Shown here: positions 30,596-37,951 of the stretch, piece by piece
How positions within the stretch are numbered: position 1 is the stretch's first letter
Layout of the letters: each line of letters starts with the position of its first letter
Source of the DNA: Plantactinospora soyae
Lineage (GTDB): Bacteria > Actinomycetota > Actinomycetes > Mycobacteriales > Micromonosporaceae
Direction: 5' to 3'
Assembly (NCBI RefSeq): GCF_014874095.1
Contig: NZ_JADBEB010000001.1
Location: forward strand, 7,502,001 to 7,566,000
DNA: 64,000 nt
Translations under genes and position numbers: made by a program
The notes under the pieces: generated by a model
Database searches by the model: none
Seen by the model: only the letters and a program-made list of their open reading frames with translations
Told to the model about the DNA's origin: nothing

Positions 30596-31104
30596 CCCCG
30601 GGGACCGCGGTCGCGGCACCCGACTCACGGGGCGGCACGGGACGCGGTCGGGGGGCGAGGTGCTTCAGCCCGATGGTCGCGACGTCCGCCGACATCGAAG
30701 TCGGGACCTTTTCCTACGGATAGCATGTGAGCGCTAACACTTATTCGTAGGACACTTCGCCGCATCCGTGAAGGCGGAAGTCAGGTACGCTCGGGTAGCC
30801 GTACGGCGCATTGCCAGACTATTTTTCGTCTTCGAGTGAGGCCGTCGGTGTCTTGCCAGAACCGACCGCGAACTACCTCGCTAATGCGCACTCTGACCCG
30901 ACTGCGAATAGCAGCGGCCGATAACACTTTTCGCCGGAAGGACCGGTTGACCTACCAATAAAATCTCACATCATTTTTTTGTTATCGACACCGTCGCCGG
31001 ACGGTCGCGACGCCAGGGTCGCCGGCTCGACGGTCCGCTGCCGCGCTGACGCCGGGTGGACGGCCGGCGACGCCCCCCGGGAGCGCGCCACCAAGGGCGA
31101 CGGT
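30596..31104. other. Gene-free region with an orphan LacI-type operator
   Basis: No supported coding frame. It contains the quasi-palindrome at 30713-30751. It also has a relatively AT-rich stretch (30900-30975) with inverted ends CGATAACA and TGTTATCG, and a run of T. Both flanking genes end toward it (MerR plus, sigma minus), so no known gene starts here. Confidence 0.5.
30713..30751. promoter_or_regulatory. LacI-type operator inside a longer quasi-palindrome, no adjacent gene start
   Basis: TGTGAGCGCTAACACT at 30726-30741 has the central GCGCT core of LacI/GalR-family operators. It is embedded in outer arms CCTACG and CGTAGG. An identical 16-mer occurs at 42766-42781. A possible minus-strand promoter (TTCACG, 17 bp, TACGAA) overlaps it but would run antisense into the MerR gene. 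Confidence 0.5.
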
Positions 31105-32733
31105 TCAGTTGGCCAGCGGAGGCCGGGCCCGGAAGGACGCGTCGGCGCGGAATCCGGGGTTGGCCGTCAACTGGTCCACCCACAACTCGAGGTTGCGGTG
31201 GCGCAGGAACCAGCCGGGGTAGTTGGACGACTCCAGCGACACCGAGCCGGGTAGCGCACCCTCACGCACACAGAACGTCGCGTCGCCGCGGAACAGTTGG
31301 CTGCCCTCGTCCTCGGTCAACCGGAGCCGCCAGGACAAATGGCGCAGGTAGCGTCCGTCCTGGGAGCGGAAGGAGACACAGGTGCGGTCCGCCAGGCCCT
31401 GGACCGCCTCGAACGTCGCCTGCTGCCGGGCTGGCCCGTCGCTGCCCGCGCCGACCCGAACCAGCAGGCCGAGACCGCCGGCCGTCGTGACGAACAGGCC
31501 CACCTGGTTGATCGACTCCATCGACACGCTCCCCAGCGGGAACGGTCGCGGTCCGGCACTGGACGGGGAGACGCTGGTCGGTCTCGGGTTTCGCGGGACC
31601 GGCGCGGTCTGGCCGGGCGCCGATGTCGAGGGCACGGTCACCACAGCCGCCGATGTCGACACGGCCGCCGTGGGTGCCGAGGTCGGCGCGGTGATGACCA
31701 CGGGTGGCCGTGGTTCCGGCGCCGGCCAGGTCGCCGTGGTCACCGTGGCACCGGCAACGACCGCGCCGGCAGCGACCGCGGCCGCGATGGGATGTGCCCC
31801 GATCACCTGGCCGAGCTGGCCGAGAAGCCCAGCCTTGAGGCCCGCGCCGAGGGCCCCGGAACCGCCGACCCCGAGCCCGCCCGCCCCGGACACCGCCGCC
31901 GCCGACCCCGCACCGAGGGTGGTACCCCAGATCGCGCCCTTACCCGTGAGCACCGCCGCCAGCGTCATGGGAACGGGTATCAGCGCGAGGCCGACGAGCA
32001 GTCGCTCGGGCGCGACCAGGCCCTGGCCGTGGCGGAGGCAGACCGGGCAGGACCGGGTGTGCCGCGTTATACGTTTACGCCACAGTGGGCTCGGCTCGCC
32101 GTTCCAGCCCGCCAGCACGGCCGGAAGTCGATCGCAGCCGGGTCGGGCGTCCAACGCGGCCACGAGCGTACGGCCGAGTTCCAGCTGGTTGCGCATCCGC
32201 TGGACCCGCACACCGGCGTGCGCCACCCCGACGCCAAGGGCTGCCGCCAGCTCTGTCCTGCTCAGCCGGCCGGCGGTTTCCAGCCACCACAGCGACAGCA
32301 GCGGCCGGTCCTCCGGGTCGAGCCAGCGACTGGCGCGTACCACCTGCCGACGTTGGTCGGACAGGTCCACCCGCAGCAACGTCAGATCCTCGAAGTCGGC
32401 GTCGGCATCCGGCTCCGCGGCCACCTCGTCCAGGGGCACGGCGCGGTCGGCGGCGACCTGCTGCCGGTGCAGATGCGTGCTGACCTGGCGCAACGCGATC
32501 GCCATCAGCCAGGGCCGGAAGCTCTCCGGCGTCCGCAGCATCCGCAGTTCCCGCAGGGCACGGAGCATGGTCTCCTGGACCACGTCGTCGGCGTCCGGAT
32601 GGCCGCTCAGCGCCCTACGCACGATGGTGTACACGATCGGCAGGTACGCCACGGTGAGTTCGTCAAGCGCCTGACGGTCGCCAGCCTGTGCGGCGACGAT
32701 CAGACTCGTCTCGTCTGTACGGGTAGCTCGCAT
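31105..32733 (-). CDS. ECF sigma factor fused to a zinc anti-sigma-like motif, hydrophobic spans and an AbfB (CBM42) domain
   Basis: The 542-residue protein starts at ATG 32733. Residues 24-95 match ECF sigma-2 (DELTVAYLPIVYTIVRRALS, DADDVVQETMLRALRELRML) and 127-190 sigma-4 (LSRTELAAALGVGVAHAGVR). H225-x3-C229-x2-C232 (HTRSCPVC) is the zinc anti-sigma pattern. Hydrophobic stretches lie at 245-262 and 314-335, separated by a Gly-rich segment. A Pro/Thr/Ser linker (337-395) precedes a beta-trefoil-like AbfB domain (399-540) with SVSLESSNYPGWFLRHRN and FRADASF. CBM42/AbfB binds arabinofuranosyl side chains. The layout suggests a one-protein sensor of arabinose-substituted polymer. Membrane topology is unclear: two spans would leave the lectin domain inside, one or three outside. 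Confidence 0.85.
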   Translation of the reverse strand: MRATRTDETSLIVAAQAGDRQALDELTVAYLPIVYTIVRRALSGHPDADDVVQETMLRALRELRMLRTPESFRPWLMAIALRQVSTHLHRQQVAADRAVPLDEVAAEPDADADFEDLTLLRVDLSDQRRQVVRASRWLDPEDRPLLSLWWLETAGRLSRTELAAALGVGVAHAGVRVQRMRNQLELGRTLVAALDARPGCDRLPAVLAGWNGEPSPLWRKRITRHTRSCPVCLRHGQGLVAPERLLVGLALIPVPMTLAAVLTGKGAIWGTTLGAGSAAAVSGAGGLGVGGSGALGAGLKAGLLGQLGQVIGAHPIAAAVAAGAVVAGATVTTATWPAPEPRPPVVITAPTSAPTAAVSTSAAVVTVPSTSAPGQTAPVPRNPRPTSVSPSSAGPRPFPLGSVSMESINQVGLFVTTAGGLGLLVRVGAGSDGPARQQATFEAVQGLADRTCVSFRSQDGRYLRHLSWRLRLTEDEGSQLFRGDATFCVREGALPGSVSLESSNYPGWFLRHRNLELWVDQLTANPGFRADASFRARPPLAN

Positions 32734-33296
32734 GTCCCATCGCTGTCGCAGGTGCCCGGAGGGTGGTGGACCGGGGCCGGTGTCACCGGGCGCGGGACGA
32801 CCCGGCGCGCGCCGGCACGACCGGTGTCGAGTCGTCGCACGCCGACCCCGCGCGTCCGGCGGAACGCAGGGGCCACGGTGTGGTGGTTGACTGTGATGGA
32901 CGCCGGCGGCCGAGTCAAGAAGTAGCCGCGAATTCTCCGGCTACCGGCTCTGCGGGCGCCGACACCGAAGCAGCGCGGAAATGTCGGTGCCACTGGTTCG
33001 GATTGCCGCGAAGAATAGCGGGAGCTTCGTCGAACGACAGCGGAACGGGGTACCCGGGCGACGCGACCGGATGATTCTTTCGGATTACCCGTCCCCATTC
33101 TGGCCCAGATGCAAACGCACCTTTGCGATCCCCGACCTCGAAGCGACGTGTTCGCGCTCACATGGATGGTCGACCGCGCCCTAGCCGGTACCCGGATACC
33201 TCGCGTCCGCGTGGCCGAACGGCGGGCGAGGCTGCGCCGCAGGTGTCGCAGCAGCCGGTGGTGGCCGGGCCTGGACACGGCCCGGCCACCGCGGCG
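32734..33296. other. Spacer upstream of the sigma gene
   Basis: No gene is supported. It should hold the sigma gene promoter, which I could not place. Its far end contains the terminator of the lyase operon. Confidence 0.4.
33260..33290. terminator. 12-bp perfect stem terminator of the lyase operon
   Basis: GGTGGCCGGGCC (33260-33271) pairs with 33279-33290 across TGGACAC, 6 nt beyond the stop of the PL11-like gene. Confidence 0.75.
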
Positions 33297-35153
33297 CTAT
33301 CGGGCGGGGTACGTGATGTTCGGACGGGGCGGTGCGCTCATGCCGGCGCCGAGGAAGTAGTCGACGTGATGTGACTGCATGTAGCCCTTGAGGGTCATGG
33401 CGTTGCGGTAGGCCGGGTTGTGCGCCAGGGTGTACAGCCGGGTGTTGCTCGGCTGGTTGGTGGTGAAGATGATCAGCTCGTTGTAACTGGCGTTGGTGTA
33501 GACGGCCTCCTCGCGCCAGTCCCCGAGGATGTCGCCGACGAAGGTGGGCTGGACGCCCTGGCTGGCGTTGACCGCGCCGTAGTTCCACGTGCTGACCAGC
33601 CGGGGCACGCTGCCGCTGGCAGTCGGGCTGTTCGGATTCCACTTCTCGATCTTGCCGTCGTTGAGCAGTTCCATGGTGAGGTCGCCGTCCCACCAGAGTC
33701 CGAGCTGCGGCCACGGCTGCCGCGAGGTGTCGGGTTCGGCGAGGCGGTTGGTGGGTGCGTTGTAGAGGCCCGAGAAGGACCAGACCTCCATCCCGGGCAC
33801 GCGTGGGTCGATGTCGCCGGCCATGCCGCGTCCGACGTCGCCGGTGCCGGACTCGACGTGCCGCCAGATGATGGAGCCGTTGGTCGCGTCGTAGTAGTAC
33901 TGGCGCAGCCCGCTGGGATTGACCTGTTGGACGCCGTAGCCCTGCAGGCCCGGCCGGTTGGGGTCCAGCTTGGCGATGTGGAAGCGGTCACCGTGGATGA
34001 CGCCCTGGGGTCCCAGCGAGTACTTCAGGGTGCCGTTGCCGTTCAGCACGAACCCGATCTCGGCAACCTCGTCCCCGCCGTCGCCGTCGACGTCGACGAT
34101 CCGGGTGTTGTGCCCGTCGGGGGTGTTCTGGTTGCCGCGCAGCCACTTCCACTGCTGGGTCAGGGACTGGCCGGTGAACCGCCAGGCGACCATCATCAGG
34201 TTGAAGTCGCCGTTGCCGATCCGGTTCTTCAGGTAGGCCACCAGACTCGGGTTGACCCCGTCGAGGTGGCCGACGCCGAAGCGGGCGTACATGGGGCCGT
34301 CGGCGAGGTAGTCGGTCGGCACCGGTGCGGTCGCACGGGGCGCGCCGGTCATGCCGTCGAGGATGGCGATGAACTGGCGGTTGTTGTCGCTGTTGGTGAA
34401 GGTGGTGCCGTTGCCGAACCGGACGCCGTTGGCGATCCGCAGGGCGACCTCGGCGCGACCGTCGCTGTCGAGGTCGTAGACGGTGACACCGTCGTTGTGG
34501 CCGACGTCGATGGTGGCCGAGCCGCCCTCGATGTTGTCCTGGTCGGTGCTGTTCGGGCCCATGTTGACCGACCAGAGGAACTGGCCGTTGCTCCGGTAGG
34601 CCTCGACGGTCTGCGGGGAGGTCTGTCGGTCGAGCACGTAGTCGTACTCACCGTCGCCGTCGAGGTCGCCGACCCAGACGAACTTGACCGCGCCGCCGGC
34701 ACGCAGCGGTACGCGGACCACCGGTTCGGTGGCGTGGTTGCCGGTCAGCGTGAATGCTCCGCTCGACGCCTGTTCCACACCGTTGATCACCGGCCGTACG
34801 TGGTAGGCGTTCGACTGGCCGAGGTTGGCGCTGGTGTCGGTGTAGTTCGTTCCGCCGGTCAGCACCGACGGGTTCAGCTTGACGGAGGCGCCGCCGCCGG
34901 TGGAGCGGTAGACGTTGAAACCGATGCCGGCGGGGTCGAGTCCGAGCAGCCGCCAGGCGACCAGCACCTGGGTGCCGCTCGATCGCACGGCCACCACACC
35001 GCGACCGAGACTCTCCATCCGCCGGGGGCCGGCGGCGTTCTCGGCCCCGTGCCGGGTCGTCGCGGCGGGCGTGCCGAGGGCGACCACCACCCCGGCGCCG
35101 GTCAGCAGGATCGTCACGGCGGCCACTACGGAGAGCTTCGTTCCTGGTCTCAT
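33297..35153 (-). CDS. Secreted rhamnogalacturonan lyase, PL11-like
   Basis: This 618-residue protein starts at ATG 35153 after GGAGGG. An N-terminal signal/anchor (VVAAVTILLTGAGVVVALGT) leads to a fibronectin-like region and the PL11 eight-bladed propeller. The repeated calcium-binding motifs typical of the family are clear: VGDLDGDGEYDYVLDR, VYDLDSDGRAEVALR, VDVDGDGGDEVAEIG and PTFVGDILGDWREEAVY. PL11 enzymes (YesW/YesX type) cut the rhamnose-galacturonate backbone of rhamnogalacturonan I by beta-elimination. The start overlaps the stop of the upstream exo-lyase-like gene (ATGA), so both are made together. No CBM is attached. Confidence 0.9.
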   Translation of the reverse strand: MRPGTKLSVVAAVTILLTGAGVVVALGTPAATTRHGAENAAGPRRMESLGRGVVAVRSSGTQVLVAWRLLGLDPAGIGFNVYRSTGGGASVKLNPSVLTGGTNYTDTSANLGQSNAYHVRPVINGVEQASSGAFTLTGNHATEPVVRVPLRAGGAVKFVWVGDLDGDGEYDYVLDRQTSPQTVEAYRSNGQFLWSVNMGPNSTDQDNIEGGSATIDVGHNDGVTVYDLDSDGRAEVALRIANGVRFGNGTTFTNSDNNRQFIAILDGMTGAPRATAPVPTDYLADGPMYARFGVGHLDGVNPSLVAYLKNRIGNGDFNLMMVAWRFTGQSLTQQWKWLRGNQNTPDGHNTRIVDVDGDGGDEVAEIGFVLNGNGTLKYSLGPQGVIHGDRFHIAKLDPNRPGLQGYGVQQVNPSGLRQYYYDATNGSIIWRHVESGTGDVGRGMAGDIDPRVPGMEVWSFSGLYNAPTNRLAEPDTSRQPWPQLGLWWDGDLTMELLNDGKIEKWNPNSPTASGSVPRLVSTWNYGAVNASQGVQPTFVGDILGDWREEAVYTNASYNELIIFTTNQPSNTRLYTLAHNPAYRNAMTLKGYMQSHHVDYFLGAGMSAPPRPNITYPAR

Positions 35154-37909
35154 CGACCCTCCTGTTCGGGTAGGTGGTCGCCGACCAGCGCCAGGCACTG
35201 GATCGCGGCCAGGCCGTACTGGGAACTCGCGTTGGTGGAGACGAAGGCGGCCTCGTCGACCGGCTTGAGCACGGCCGCCCCTTCGACTCGCGCGGAGCGC
35301 CAGTCGAGGCTCCGTGGATAGCCGGCGTGGCCGGTGTGGAACTCCTGCCAGGCGCGGGCGGCCAGCGTCGGGTTGCCGGTCCTGGCGGCGGCGTAGGCGG
35401 TGAGCCGGGCGTGGGCCTGGCGCAGGTTCAGGTTGCCGAACGACTGCCCGGTCTCGGCGATCTGCTCGGCGGCGGTGCCGTTGTAGAGCCGGCAATACTG
35501 CAGCCAGGCGTCGGTGAACTCCGGTAGGTCGAGCAGGTCGACGAGTTCGCTGCATATCTCGACGAGGCCGAACACGGCGCCGAGTGACCCGACGGACACC
35601 GCCGGTTCGGCGGCTGCGAACGCACCGGTGTCCAGGTCGTAGAGCCCGCTGCCCTGGATGAACCCGTTCGGCATGGCCGCGATGGTGCGGGCGCTGTTGA
35701 CCAGCTTGCGTAGCGCGACCGGGTTGCCGCCGCGTTCCCACTCGGTCAGGAAGGCGGCGGCGAGCCCACTCCAGTCGGTGCCGGTGCCGACCGACAGCGC
35801 GTGCGGATCCGGCTCGTACGGCTCTGTGCGGATCTTGCGGATCGGGTCCAGCACCAGGAAGGTACGGTCGGCGTCGACCAGGTCCCGCATCAGGTCGCCG
35901 ACCCGCTCGTCGGCGGTGAGGAAGTAGTAGAAGCGCCGGTACGCGGCGCTGCTGATCCGGAGCTGTTTGGCGCTGTCGGCCCAGTGCAGCACCCCGTGCC
36001 GGGTGCCGAGGTCGCGGTACCTGCCGAGGTGGTAGACGTCGACCTCGCCGGTGTGCCGGGTCATGGCCTCGGCGAAGCGGAACACGTCGGCGCGACCGGA
36101 GCGCAGGTACTGGTACCACAGCCACAGGTCCGGCGACAGCTCGGAGTTCGCCCAGGCGTACCCGCCGACGTCGTACCGCCACACGTGCCGGTCCGGGTCG
36201 TAGCTGTGCATGATGTCGCCGTAGTTCCAGAACCCGTACCAGGAACGCTGCTCCACCTGCTGGCGGTGGAAGTCGACGAGGAAGTCGAGCCGGTCCTCGA
36301 TCTCCCGCCGCGCCGGGGTGCTCCGGTCGACCGGGCTCCAGTCACCGAAGACGCCGGCCGCGTGCAGGTGTGCCGGTGGGGCGACGACGAGCGGCGGATA
36401 GCGCACGGCGGCGGCGAGCTCGGCGAACCGCTCGGCGAACGGTGTGCCGTCGAGCGCCCAGAAGGACATCTCGGTGGTACGCGCTATCCCGTACGGGCTG
36501 CCGAAGCCGGGCTCGTAGTCCTCGTAGGTGATCTCGAGGCCCTCCAGCTGCTCCGGGTAGGTGTCCTGACCCATCCCGTCGTGGTAGAAGCGCAGGTCCA
36601 TCGGGGTGGCGTCGGGCGACCAGAGCCAGACGGTGACCTCGGCGTTGTCCGTGGCAGCGCCCCGGACGTCGAGCTGGGTCGGGTGCAGCTGCCAGAAGTC
36701 CTTCATCCCGAACGCGAGACCGCCGGAGACGCCGCCGACATAGCCGAGGCCGGCGGCACGGCGGCCGGTGTCGACCTGCACCCAGCCGTGCCCCGAACCG
36801 GTGCGCTTGCGGATGTCGAAGCAGCCGTCGGTGAGCTGCCGCAGGCTGTAGTCGCCCCAGGCCGGCACGAGGTGCAGCCGGCCGCTCACCCGGGTGTCCC
36901 AGGTGGACAGCTCGGGCGTGCGTGCTCCGGCGACCTGCGCCTGCCGTACCGCCGGGCCGGGGTCACGGCGCAGGCCGGTGACGCCACGGACGGCCTCGCC
37001 GAGCACGCCGTCGCCGTCTCCGGCGAACCGTACGTGCCGGTCGTGCGGTTGGTCGGTCATCGGCACCTGGAATCGGACGCCCAGGCCGCTGATGAAGTCC
37101 TTGCGCTCGTTGCCGTCGAAGACGAAGGTGTGCACGACTCGGATGCCGTCGCTACCGGCGTAGAGGTACAGCCGGAGCGTGAACGGCAACCAGACGCGGC
37201 GGCCCCGGTCGGCGCGGTGCCGGCCCTCGACCCGGACCACCGCACGCACCGGGCCGCGCTGCTCGACCGTGACCGTCTGGATGTCGCTGGTGAACCGCTC
37301 CTGGCGCACGGTGCCCGCCTCCGGGTCTCCGGGGGCGTCCTTGCGCAGGCAGACCAGGGTGCCGTTCGCCGCGACGGTGCGGTCGCCCCGGATGATCGCG
37401 GGCACCAGCACGCGGCCCCGGCGGGCGATCCGGCAACGCACGACGCCGGTGTCCACCTCGATCGTCCTGGCGGTCTCGGTGACCCGCACCGGGCTCTCCG
37501 GTACGGCCGCCGGGCCGGGCCGGAGCAGGTAGTCCGCCGCGGGCGGGACGCTGGTGCCGATCGCGTGGGCGGTCCACTTGACCGTGCCGTCCGGCCAGAA
37601 TCCGATCGGCCAGGACTGCACGGGTACGGCCGTGCCGGCGGCGGTGGTCAGGGAGAGCTCCTGGTCACGGCTCAGGGCGCCGCGCGGCCACGGCACGCCC
37701 CAGGTGGCGCCGATCAGGGCGCGGGGTGTGCCGCCGTCGAGCCAGCGCACCGGCACACCGGCGTCGAGGGCCGGGGCGGCACCGGCCCGCGCGTCGGCCG
37801 GGGCGACGGCGGCCTGCGCGGCAGCGGCCGTTCGGGCGCCGGGGAGCTGGGTCGCGACGCCGGCGATTGCGACACCCATCAGCAGGCTGCGTCTGGGCAG
37901 TTGAGGCAT
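35150..37909 (-). CDS. Tat-exported exo-rhamnogalacturonan lyase-like protein (PcRGLX/YetA type)
   Basis: The 919-residue protein begins at ATG 37909 with a Tat signal (RRSLLMGVAIAGVATQLPGA). The mature part fits the PcRGLX/YetA-type lyases (PL26-like): an N-terminal RIFT-barrel region (VPVRWLDGGTPRALIGATWG, GVPWPRGAL), a central domain and a long C-terminal alpha/alpha toroid (SWYGFWNYGDIMHSYDPDRH, WANSELSPDLWLWYQYLRSG, ADERVGDLMRDLVDADRTF). Such enzymes release disaccharides from rhamnogalacturonan I. It is the first gene of a two-gene operon with the PL11-like lyase. A LacI-type operator lies 43 nt upstream. Confidence 0.8.
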   Translation of the reverse strand: MPQLPRRSLLMGVAIAGVATQLPGARTAAAAQAAVAPADARAGAAPALDAGVPVRWLDGGTPRALIGATWGVPWPRGALSRDQELSLTTAAGTAVPVQSWPIGFWPDGTVKWTAHAIGTSVPPAADYLLRPGPAAVPESPVRVTETARTIEVDTGVVRCRIARRGRVLVPAIIRGDRTVAANGTLVCLRKDAPGDPEAGTVRQERFTSDIQTVTVEQRGPVRAVVRVEGRHRADRGRRVWLPFTLRLYLYAGSDGIRVVHTFVFDGNERKDFISGLGVRFQVPMTDQPHDRHVRFAGDGDGVLGEAVRGVTGLRRDPGPAVRQAQVAGARTPELSTWDTRVSGRLHLVPAWGDYSLRQLTDGCFDIRKRTGSGHGWVQVDTGRRAAGLGYVGGVSGGLAFGMKDFWQLHPTQLDVRGAATDNAEVTVWLWSPDATPMDLRFYHDGMGQDTYPEQLEGLEITYEDYEPGFGSPYGIARTTEMSFWALDGTPFAERFAELAAAVRYPPLVVAPPAHLHAAGVFGDWSPVDRSTPARREIEDRLDFLVDFHRQQVEQRSWYGFWNYGDIMHSYDPDRHVWRYDVGGYAWANSELSPDLWLWYQYLRSGRADVFRFAEAMTRHTGEVDVYHLGRYRDLGTRHGVLHWADSAKQLRISSAAYRRFYYFLTADERVGDLMRDLVDADRTFLVLDPIRKIRTEPYEPDPHALSVGTGTDWSGLAAAFLTEWERGGNPVALRKLVNSARTIAAMPNGFIQGSGLYDLDTGAFAAAEPAVSVGSLGAVFGLVEICSELVDLLDLPEFTDAWLQYCRLYNGTAAEQIAETGQSFGNLNLRQAHARLTAYAAARTGNPTLAARAWQEFHTGHAGYPRSLDWRSARVEGAAVLKPVDEAAFVSTNASSQYGLAAIQCLALVGDHLPEQEGR

Positions 37910-37951
37910 GGCGCACTCCACTTCGCGGGGGGATAACAGCCAGAGGCCGCT

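Follow-up and report, generated by a model that had tools for sequence, protein, structure and literature searches.

An ECF sigma factor fused to a CBM42 domain in Plantactinospora soyae, a candidate one-protein sensor of arabinofuranosyl polysaccharides

Extracytoplasmic function (ECF) sigma factors of groups ECF48, ECF52, and ECF53 of Actinobacteria are fused to a zinc-finger and membrane part and are expected to be activated by proteolysis (PMC8999054), and glycoside hydrolase (GH) and carbohydrate-binding module (CBM) domains are noted in some ECF52 and ECF53 proteins, without experimental validation (PMC10766802). SCO4117 of Streptomyces coelicolor, which was studied genetically, is described as the first characterized ECF52 member and contains a smart00776 carbohydrate module (PMC5826349). 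In the SigI/RsgI systems of Clostridium thermocellum, a C-terminal sensor such as a CBM and one membrane span are coupled to sigma control of plant-wall enzymes (PMC12203970, PMC4711584). The gene described here, P0001, is in a 64,000-nucleotide stretch of the Plantactinospora soyae genome (RefSeq assembly GCF_014874095.1, contig NZ_JADBEB010000001.1, positions 7,502,001 to 7,566,000), referred to as the window, where it occupies positions 31105..32733 of the minus strand and codes for a 542-aa protein with an N-terminal sigma factor and a C-terminal CBM42 (AbfB) domain.

The P0001 protein resembles SCO4117 in having an ECF sigma factor, a zinc finger, a membrane region, a proline-rich extension, and a carbohydrate-binding domain in one chain, in a group reported from Actinobacteria only (PMC5826349), and shares with ECF53 a sigma factor with a C-terminal zinc-finger and membrane part (PMC8999054, PMC10766802). 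A first-pass annotation of this DNA had called the architecture unusual, which is too strong, since such fusions are already described in ECF48, ECF52, and ECF53 (PMC8999054, PMC10766802, PMC5826349). By domain order P0001 has the ECF52 architecture, with the zinc finger recognized by motif only and the span by hydropathy only, but in place of its AbfB SCO4117 has smart00776 (NPCBM), and the role of SCO4117 is in development. Strict ECF52 membership was rejected on the difference in module and on sequence, as the ECF52-like NPCBM protein L209 scores 28 bits against a profile of the sigma/zinc/membrane part (the chassis), compared with 259 to 617 bits for close chassis relatives and 82 to 109 bits for distant ones; L209 was the only one of nine NPCBM loci checked to match at E 1e-3, and its SCO4117-like identity is taken from domain order.

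RsgI5 of the clostridial systems has a CBM42 of the same fold (9fnk), and the proposal that a polysaccharide-recognition domain, a sigma factor, and a zinc anti-sigma-like element in one chain form a functional parallel to RsgI-SigI holds up, with RsgI5 among the closest solved CBM42s. RsgI, however, is a distinct anti-sigma protein that contains an autocleaving periplasmic domain, whereas P0001 combines the sigma factor and an inhibitor-like part in one chain; RsgI membership was rejected for this reason and because the protein has no recognizable RsgI_N or autocleaving domain. Among the papers listed in full-text searches of the open-access literature, none described an ECF sigma factor fused to CBM42 or the regulon of one.

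The reading that we favor, and consider reasonably probable, is that P0001 codes for a one-protein transmembrane sensor of arabinofuranosyl polysaccharides, with the sensor outside, the sigma factor inside, proteolytic release, and arabinoxylan-degrading enzymes as targets. The N-terminal ECF sigma factor would be kept inactive at the membrane by its own chain's zinc-motif segment, and a single span would carry the Pro/Ser/Thr linker and CBM42 to the outside. There, terminal alpha-L-arabinofuranosyl residues of arabinoxylan or arabinan would be bound in the conserved beta pocket, and perhaps in the gamma pocket as well. Binding would release the sigma part, probably via regulated proteolysis of the linker and membrane span, and the freed sigma factor would direct RNA polymerase to TGTTAT-N17/18-GTCG promoters of arabinoxylan-degrading enzymes, these being the neighboring GH43, GH62, and GH10 genes in many relatives and a distant CBM13-GH62 gene in P. 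soyae itself.

Domain organization of the P0001 protein

The gene has 542 open codons on the minus strand, to which all coordinates in this section refer; a plus-strand reading of 31105-32733 was rejected because of an in-frame stop. The open frame, Pfam, NCBIfam, and motif evidence bear out the claim that one 542-residue chain contains an ECF sigma factor, a zinc motif, hydrophobic spans, a linker, and a full AbfB domain. Sigma region 2 (residues 29-92; 32458..32649) matches Pfam Sigma70_r2 (E 2.3e-12), and the NCBIfam sigma70-ECF model (TIGR02937) matches residues 22-185 above its cut-off (E 5.4e-16). Region 4, with approximate limits at residues 128-185 (32179..32352), is placed by the TIGR02937 match and by helices in AlphaFold models; it has no Pfam match in the 542-aa protein, so that of the two sigma regions first annotated, region 2 alone is confirmed by Pfam. 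With regions 2 and 4 and no region 3, the protein is an ECF sigma factor. AbfB and Sigma70_r2 are its only Pfam matches over cut-off. In the full AlphaFold model the sigma helices and CBM42 are confident, and the predicted local distance difference test (pLDDT) score reaches at least 90 for 324 of 542 residues; it is below 50 across residues 250-379 and 381-392, the linker and membrane part being disordered. No separate anti-sigma gene was noticed among the neighboring open reading frames, with Pfam run on eight window neighbors.

The same domain order recurs in many genomes, which excludes a chance origin; the closest named relative, among the best 80 of at least 477, is from Plantactinospora mayteni (79% identity, full length). 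P. soyae itself has two paralogues of the chassis (L002 and L003), with the catalytic core PF11790, which we take to be GH128-like, as the C-terminal domain of one and a Pel9A-like beta-helix as that of the other.

The zinc motif HTRSCPVC (residues 225-232; 32038..32061) has the form HX3CX2C, the hallmark of the zinc-binding anti-sigma domain (ZAS), and by this motif the segment is of the ZAS type; its His and both Cys are invariant in all 87 aligned CBM42-type proteins. It is followed by a first hydrophobic stretch (residues 245-263; 31945..32001; Kyte-Doolittle value 2.2), a candidate transmembrane span identified by hydropathy, with no helix in the model (approximately residues 310-334; 31732..31806), and a Pro/Ser/Thr/Ala-rich linker recognized from its sequence and low pLDDT (approximately residues 335-400; 31534..31731).

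If both hydrophobic stretches crossed the membrane, CBM42 would be cytoplasmic and unable to meet a polymer. In the CBM42 group (105 sequences) the first stretch matches the second in hydrophobicity (Kyte-Doolittle medians of 2.11 and 1.89), charged residues occur in just 12 of the 105 first stretches, and Lys/Arg residues are nearly even around the second (means of 1.41 before and 1.11 after, a small bias), all of which suit two crossings. We nevertheless regard this topology as improbable. The first stretch contains a Pro-Val-Pro break and is modeled as two short helices, which makes residues 310-334 the better membrane-anchor candidate, and it carries charged residues in 11 of 19 GH128-type relatives. 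Outside the CBM42 group, Lys/Arg residues are concentrated before the second stretch (means of 5.58 before and 1.58 after in 38 other named relatives; 4.92 and 0.92 in 25 phylum-sample proteins, including the P. soyae paralogues), predicting an N-in, C-out orientation, and the C-terminal domains found on other chassis (GH128-like, Pel9A-like beta-helix, CAP, and CBM13) are of kinds that are usually secreted. The better reading is a predicted single span with CBM42 outside, the first stretch probably being the end of the anti-sigma-like part.

The CBM42 domain itself (residues 404-535; 31129..31524) is complete, matching positions 2-136 of the 137 in Pfam AbfB (E 2.5e-38), and Foldseek aligns its model with the RsgI5 CBM42 with a TM-score of 0.89 over the target and also places it on arabinofuranosidase CBM42s. 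In AtAbf43C the beta pocket is formed by H70, Y73, and D89 and the gamma pocket by H118, N120, Y121, and D136, and CBM42 ligands are typically small arabino-oligosaccharides or terminal arabinofuranosyl residues (PMC12493170). The equivalent beta-pocket residues in P0001 are His465, Trp468, and Asp484; the gamma pocket retains His512, Asn514, and Asp531 with Leu replacing Tyr, and the alpha pocket is lost. Neither the His nor the Asp of the beta pocket varies among the 87 CBM42 forms, and the aromatic position (+3) is Trp or Phe in 76, whereas the gamma-pocket His is kept in 49 and the Asp in 53, and the alpha pocket is gone. Such a pattern is that of a domain under selection for binding. By both its AbfB beta-trefoil fold and its arabinofuranose pocket residues the domain is a CBM42, like those of arabinofuranosidases (AtAbf43C, SaAraf43A, and GH54 AbfB) in its intact beta pocket, but unlike them in standing apart from any enzyme, with the alpha pocket lost and the gamma pocket variable.

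Sensor domains and neighboring enzyme genes in the family

The chassis is widespread, with matches at 1e-30 in at least 115 of 200 genomes of the bacterial family, and at 1e-25 in 22 of 396 genomes in a phylum-wide sample, in which Streptomyces-like genomes have chassis with a CAP domain, an unnamed domain, or a beta-helix. Among 125 distinct chassis proteins in the loci compared, 87 have CBM42 at the C terminus, 20 group with the GH128-like core, and the remainder either are short or carry Lcl (DUF1566), CBM13, a beta-helix, or another domain; the loci were taken from best matches ranked by similarity to the window protein, and the CBM42 share is therefore biased. In a scan of named relatives (the best 80 of at least 477), 18 of 81 chassis proteins have CBM42, in the genera Plantactinospora, Catellatospora, Dactylosporangium, Actinoplanes, Hamadaea, Kineosporia, and Streptomyces. 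Mapped onto a FastTree tree with 203 rows, the sensors require 11 changes among eight labels, of which two, DUF1566 and Lcl, are the same domain, so the readers are swapped, but rarely. The CAP, unnamed-domain, and Lcl labels were assigned from short text patterns, and one example of each was examined with Pfam (L161, L164, and L107).

Sensor type goes with the kind of neighbor. A gene bearing CBM2, CBM13, or CBM42 is present within 6 kb at 70 of 87 CBM42-type loci and 1 of 20 GH128-type loci (Fisher 2.6e-10), and counted by gene, with chassis genes left out, such module-bearing neighbors are 158 of 557 and 2 of 163, respectively (Fisher 1.1e-17); three loci (L069, L089, and L144) each contain two CBM42-type chassis genes close together, so that their neighbors are counted twice. 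Four of the 70 nearest module-bearing neighbors are themselves chassis genes and were left out. Pfam families of the other 66 include GH43 (17), GH62 (14), GH10 (14), Melibiase_2 (4), GH54 (2, ArabFuran-catal), GH11 (2), and esterase-like families (6-7). Among the 25 families listed, of 42, for the 39 immediate neighbors of GH128-type genes there is no GH43, GH62, or GH10, but one GH64 (a beta-1,3-glucanase) and one CBM6 are present. The arabinofuranose-binding sensor type thus stands beside arabinofuranosidase and xylanase families. Genes in the relatives were called by our own GC3 rule, and their starts are approximate.

Fusions of the chassis to CAP or to the unnamed domain are seen in L160-L167, L181-L183, and many of L253-L294 (Streptomyces and Kitasatospora). 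Several sensor-less proteins (L224, L226, L227, L233, L235, L236, L237, L239, and L247, of which L224 is the same gene as L023/L052) stop at the same place after the zinc segment, for example with GLLGQLV followed by TGA. No split CBM42 was seen 3' of the early stop in sensor-less Streptomyces loci when the frames were inspected by eye for AbfB-like strings.

A promoter-like motif at chassis loci

Word counts upstream of CBM42-type genes yielded GTTAT-N18-GTCG, which the 86 upstream regions contain 17 times in sense and 16 times in antisense. A weight matrix built from the 17 sense sites finds 125 sites in CBM42 loci, compared with 24 in shuffled loci; 39 of the 125 precede module-bearing genes (with a few tandem chassis genes counted there), 19 are before the sigma gene (mostly the training sites), 10 are before other genes, 14 are intragenic, and 43 are unassigned. 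A plain pattern, TGTTAT-N-GTC, was written after these upstream sites had been seen, and was sought between 300 bp before and 60 bp past the called start, with a scrambled pattern as the control. It precedes 40 of 194 module-bearing genes and 7 of 652 other neighbors, with one scrambled match in each set.

Upstream of the sigma gene the plain pattern is present in the sense orientation in 20 of 96 CBM42, 18 of 29 CAP, 11 of 20 GH128, and 8 of 10 unnamed-domain forms; the scrambled control gives one match in the 96 CBM42 forms and none in the other three groups. The CAP and unnamed-domain groups took no part in the derivation of the motif, which is a likely self-promoter of their chassis genes. 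Antisense sites upstream, pointing toward a divergent neighbor, are present in 25/96 CBM42, 2/29 CAP, and 1/20 GH128 forms. Sense sites also occur downstream of the sigma gene, in 23 of 97 CBM42 forms and in 9 of the 26 short ones (0 and 2 with the scrambled control), and antisense sites 3' of the gene in 14 of 97 CBM42 forms (six congeners included), 10 of 26 short forms, 1 of 20 GH128 forms, and 0 of 29 CAP forms. The branches have the -35-like half in common but differ in the -10-like half, with rGTCGC for CBM42 and GTCTCC for the other branches, which is what a sigma factor family would leave.

Whole genomes show a corresponding excess. The 30 genomes taken as CBM42-type have 261 sites compared with 85 for the reversed pattern (0.90 and 0.29 per Mb); one of the 30, G031, is known there only by a short form of the branch (L016/L045). 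Twenty genomes without the chassis have 66 and 60. Eight named Micromonosporaceae CBM42 loci contain 15 motif matches compared with 1.3 in shuffled sequence, and ten Streptomyces/Kineosporia CBM42 loci, with 6 compared with 4.3, are barely enriched; the regulon claim therefore rests on the Micromonosporaceae.

In the 9.7-Mb P. soyae genome there are five strict TGTTAT-N16-18-GTCG sites, and two of the reversed pattern. A divergent pair is located 3' of the sigma gene, another divergent pair is upstream of the CBM13-GH62 gene, and there is one more. The CBM13-GH62 gene is the only GH62 found in the genome at E 1e-20 and is 1.55 Mb from the sigma gene, with the nearer site of its pair about 260 bp upstream of the called start. 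The pair beside P0001 consists of a site directed outward, away from the sigma gene (30896..30931, minus strand, score 18.9), and an inward site antisense into the sigma-gene 3' end (30975..31010, plus strand, score 12.7), both from the weight-matrix scan, which finds nothing else above a score of 7 in the whole window. The suggestion that the regulon would be found near the window's CBM2 enzymes is not borne out.

Congeners offer a possible account of the outward site. A CBM13-GH43 gene directly follows the sigma gene in L040-L042 and is preceded by the outward site of the pair in L041 and L042; the signal and CBM13 portions of this gene and of the P. soyae GH62 share 70-76% identity. The divergent pair just 3' of the sigma gene is also seen in L039-L043 and in Streptomyces short forms. 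The CBM13-GH43 gene is absent directly after the sigma gene in L039 (the P. mayteni region) and L043, and in the window, where there is a MerR-type gene (labeled from its sequence) instead, so the outward site looks like an orphan promoter with no evident enzyme gene behind it now. At the inward site, the CGAC and ATAAC columns (in the sense-strand reading) are invariant in a six-congener alignment with 57% mean column identity, and the site may give rise to a putative antisense RNA.

Alternative explanations and other features of the window

Several observations weigh against the reading of P0001 as a sensor that acts through this motif. Most of the genes concerned lack it, including 154 of 194 module-bearing genes and 76 of 96 CBM42-type sigma genes, and 17 CBM42-type genes had themselves supplied the weight matrix. 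In the window there is no motif within 500 bp upstream of the sigma gene, nor within 400 bp upstream of the PL26, PL11, GH43-CBM2, DUF6055-CBM2, GH2, DUF2264, and beta-helix genes. The gap in motif density between genomes with and without the chassis is small (0.90 and 0.56 per Mb, the latter compared with 0.51 for the reversed pattern), and the chassis-free set has smaller genomes and differs phylogenetically from the CBM42-type set; some chassis-free genomes show an excess of their own (12 compared with 1 in G004, 5 compared with 0 in G078 of the same genus, and 4 compared with 1 in each of G003 and G015). The weak enrichment in Streptomyces and Kineosporia points the same way. As for the zinc segment, the annotated anti-sigma-type motif is upheld by its invariance but not by the Pfam zf-HC2 profile, which has no match in the 542-aa protein up to E 1 and weak matches in 5 of 50 relatives (best E 0.066), and the packing of the segment on the sigma factor is not confident in an AlphaFold model of residues 1-269 (predicted TM-score of 0.52).

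Among the other explanations, the one that we would rank highest, while still thinking it unlikely, is that TGTTAT-N-GTC is the site of another regulator and is linked to these genes indirectly, which would suit both the frequent arrangement of sites as divergent pairs and the excess in the four chassis-free genomes. It accounts poorly for a -35-like half common to the self-upstream sites of the CBM42, GH128, CAP, and unnamed-domain branches alongside a branch-specific -10-like half, and for an excess over the reversed pattern that is clear in CBM42-form genomes and absent overall in chassis-free ones. Rather less likely is that CBM42 is a tether or a leftover pinning the protein to the wall or polymer, with activity set by expression level or another signal. 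Sensor-less forms are consistent with this: they make up 28 of the 203 tree rows (L263 and L285 being short only through a contig end), and 26 of them share one set of 48 rows with 22 CBM42 rows that include the window protein. The motif is also still present at 5 of 15 module-bearing genes around seven short loci of the first set (scrambled control, 1), and the short form L247 of Streptomyces scabiei is followed by CBM13-GH5 and CBM13-GH95 genes. A tether, however, would not be expected to show beta-pocket His and Asp residues that never vary in 87 CBM42 forms while much of the domain does, nor a sensor type that goes with the kind of neighbors. The ligand could also be arabinose of the cell's own envelope, or glycan damage, with P0001 as an envelope-stress sigma factor; whole-cell arabinose is common in Micromonosporaceae. 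Small arabino-oligosaccharides and terminal arabinofuranosyl residues, the typical CBM42 ligands (PMC12493170), need not be derived from plants. We think an envelope ligand very improbable, as the module-bearing neighbors and the motif-bearing genes belong to plant-wall families such as GH62, GH43, and GH10.

Beyond the proposed sensing of arabinofuranosyl polysaccharides by P0001, a wider picture is possible, which we put forward tentatively and with some doubt. The chassis proteins would form an actinobacterial family of membrane-tethered sigma factors with a shared TGTTAT -35 and exchangeable readers on the outside (CBM42, GH128-like, CBM13, beta-helix, Lcl, CAP, and the unnamed domain), and every branch would have a -10 and a regulon of its own. 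The CBM42 branch would sense arabinofuranosyl polysaccharides and switch on arabinoxylan degradation in trans, and in the clade of the window protein a conserved promoter would fire antisense into the gene's own 3' end, possibly as a self-limiting loop. A single chain with swappable readers would then link sugar sensing to transcription, which would account in part for the choice of plant-wall enzymes by soil actinobacteria and provide a compact scaffold for polysaccharide biosensors. The CBM42 branch offers a likely ligand class, two mutable pocket residues, a promoter-like motif, and, as a reporter, one distant GH62 gene.

Upstream of P0001 on the same strand are genes for a PL11 rhamnogalacturonan lyase of 618 aa (33297..35153, minus strand; RGI_lyase and RGL11_C domains) and for an exo-rhamnogalacturonan lyase with PcRGLX domains, which we take to be of the PL26 type (35150..37921, minus strand). 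The first-pass annotation described the neighbors as pectin and arabinan enzymes; these adjoining genes are for pectin (rhamnogalacturonan) lyases, and the GH43 gene of the window starts more than 10 kb from the sigma gene.

Other sequence elements were noted near these genes. In the beta-helix paralogue a motif-like site begins 87 bp before the gene start, and the GH128-like paralogue has no motif within 400 bp upstream. A ATTGCCAGACT word is common to the vicinity of the orphan promoter and the GH62 upstream region. A CGCTAACA element, presumably like a LacI-type operator, is shared between the window (at about 30728) and L200 (at about 7010). The word counts upstream of CBM42-type genes also gave TTGAC...CACAGTC, and a TTGAC...CACAGTCAAC block is present upstream of the sigma gene in the window (about 32880-32925, minus strand) and in several close relatives.

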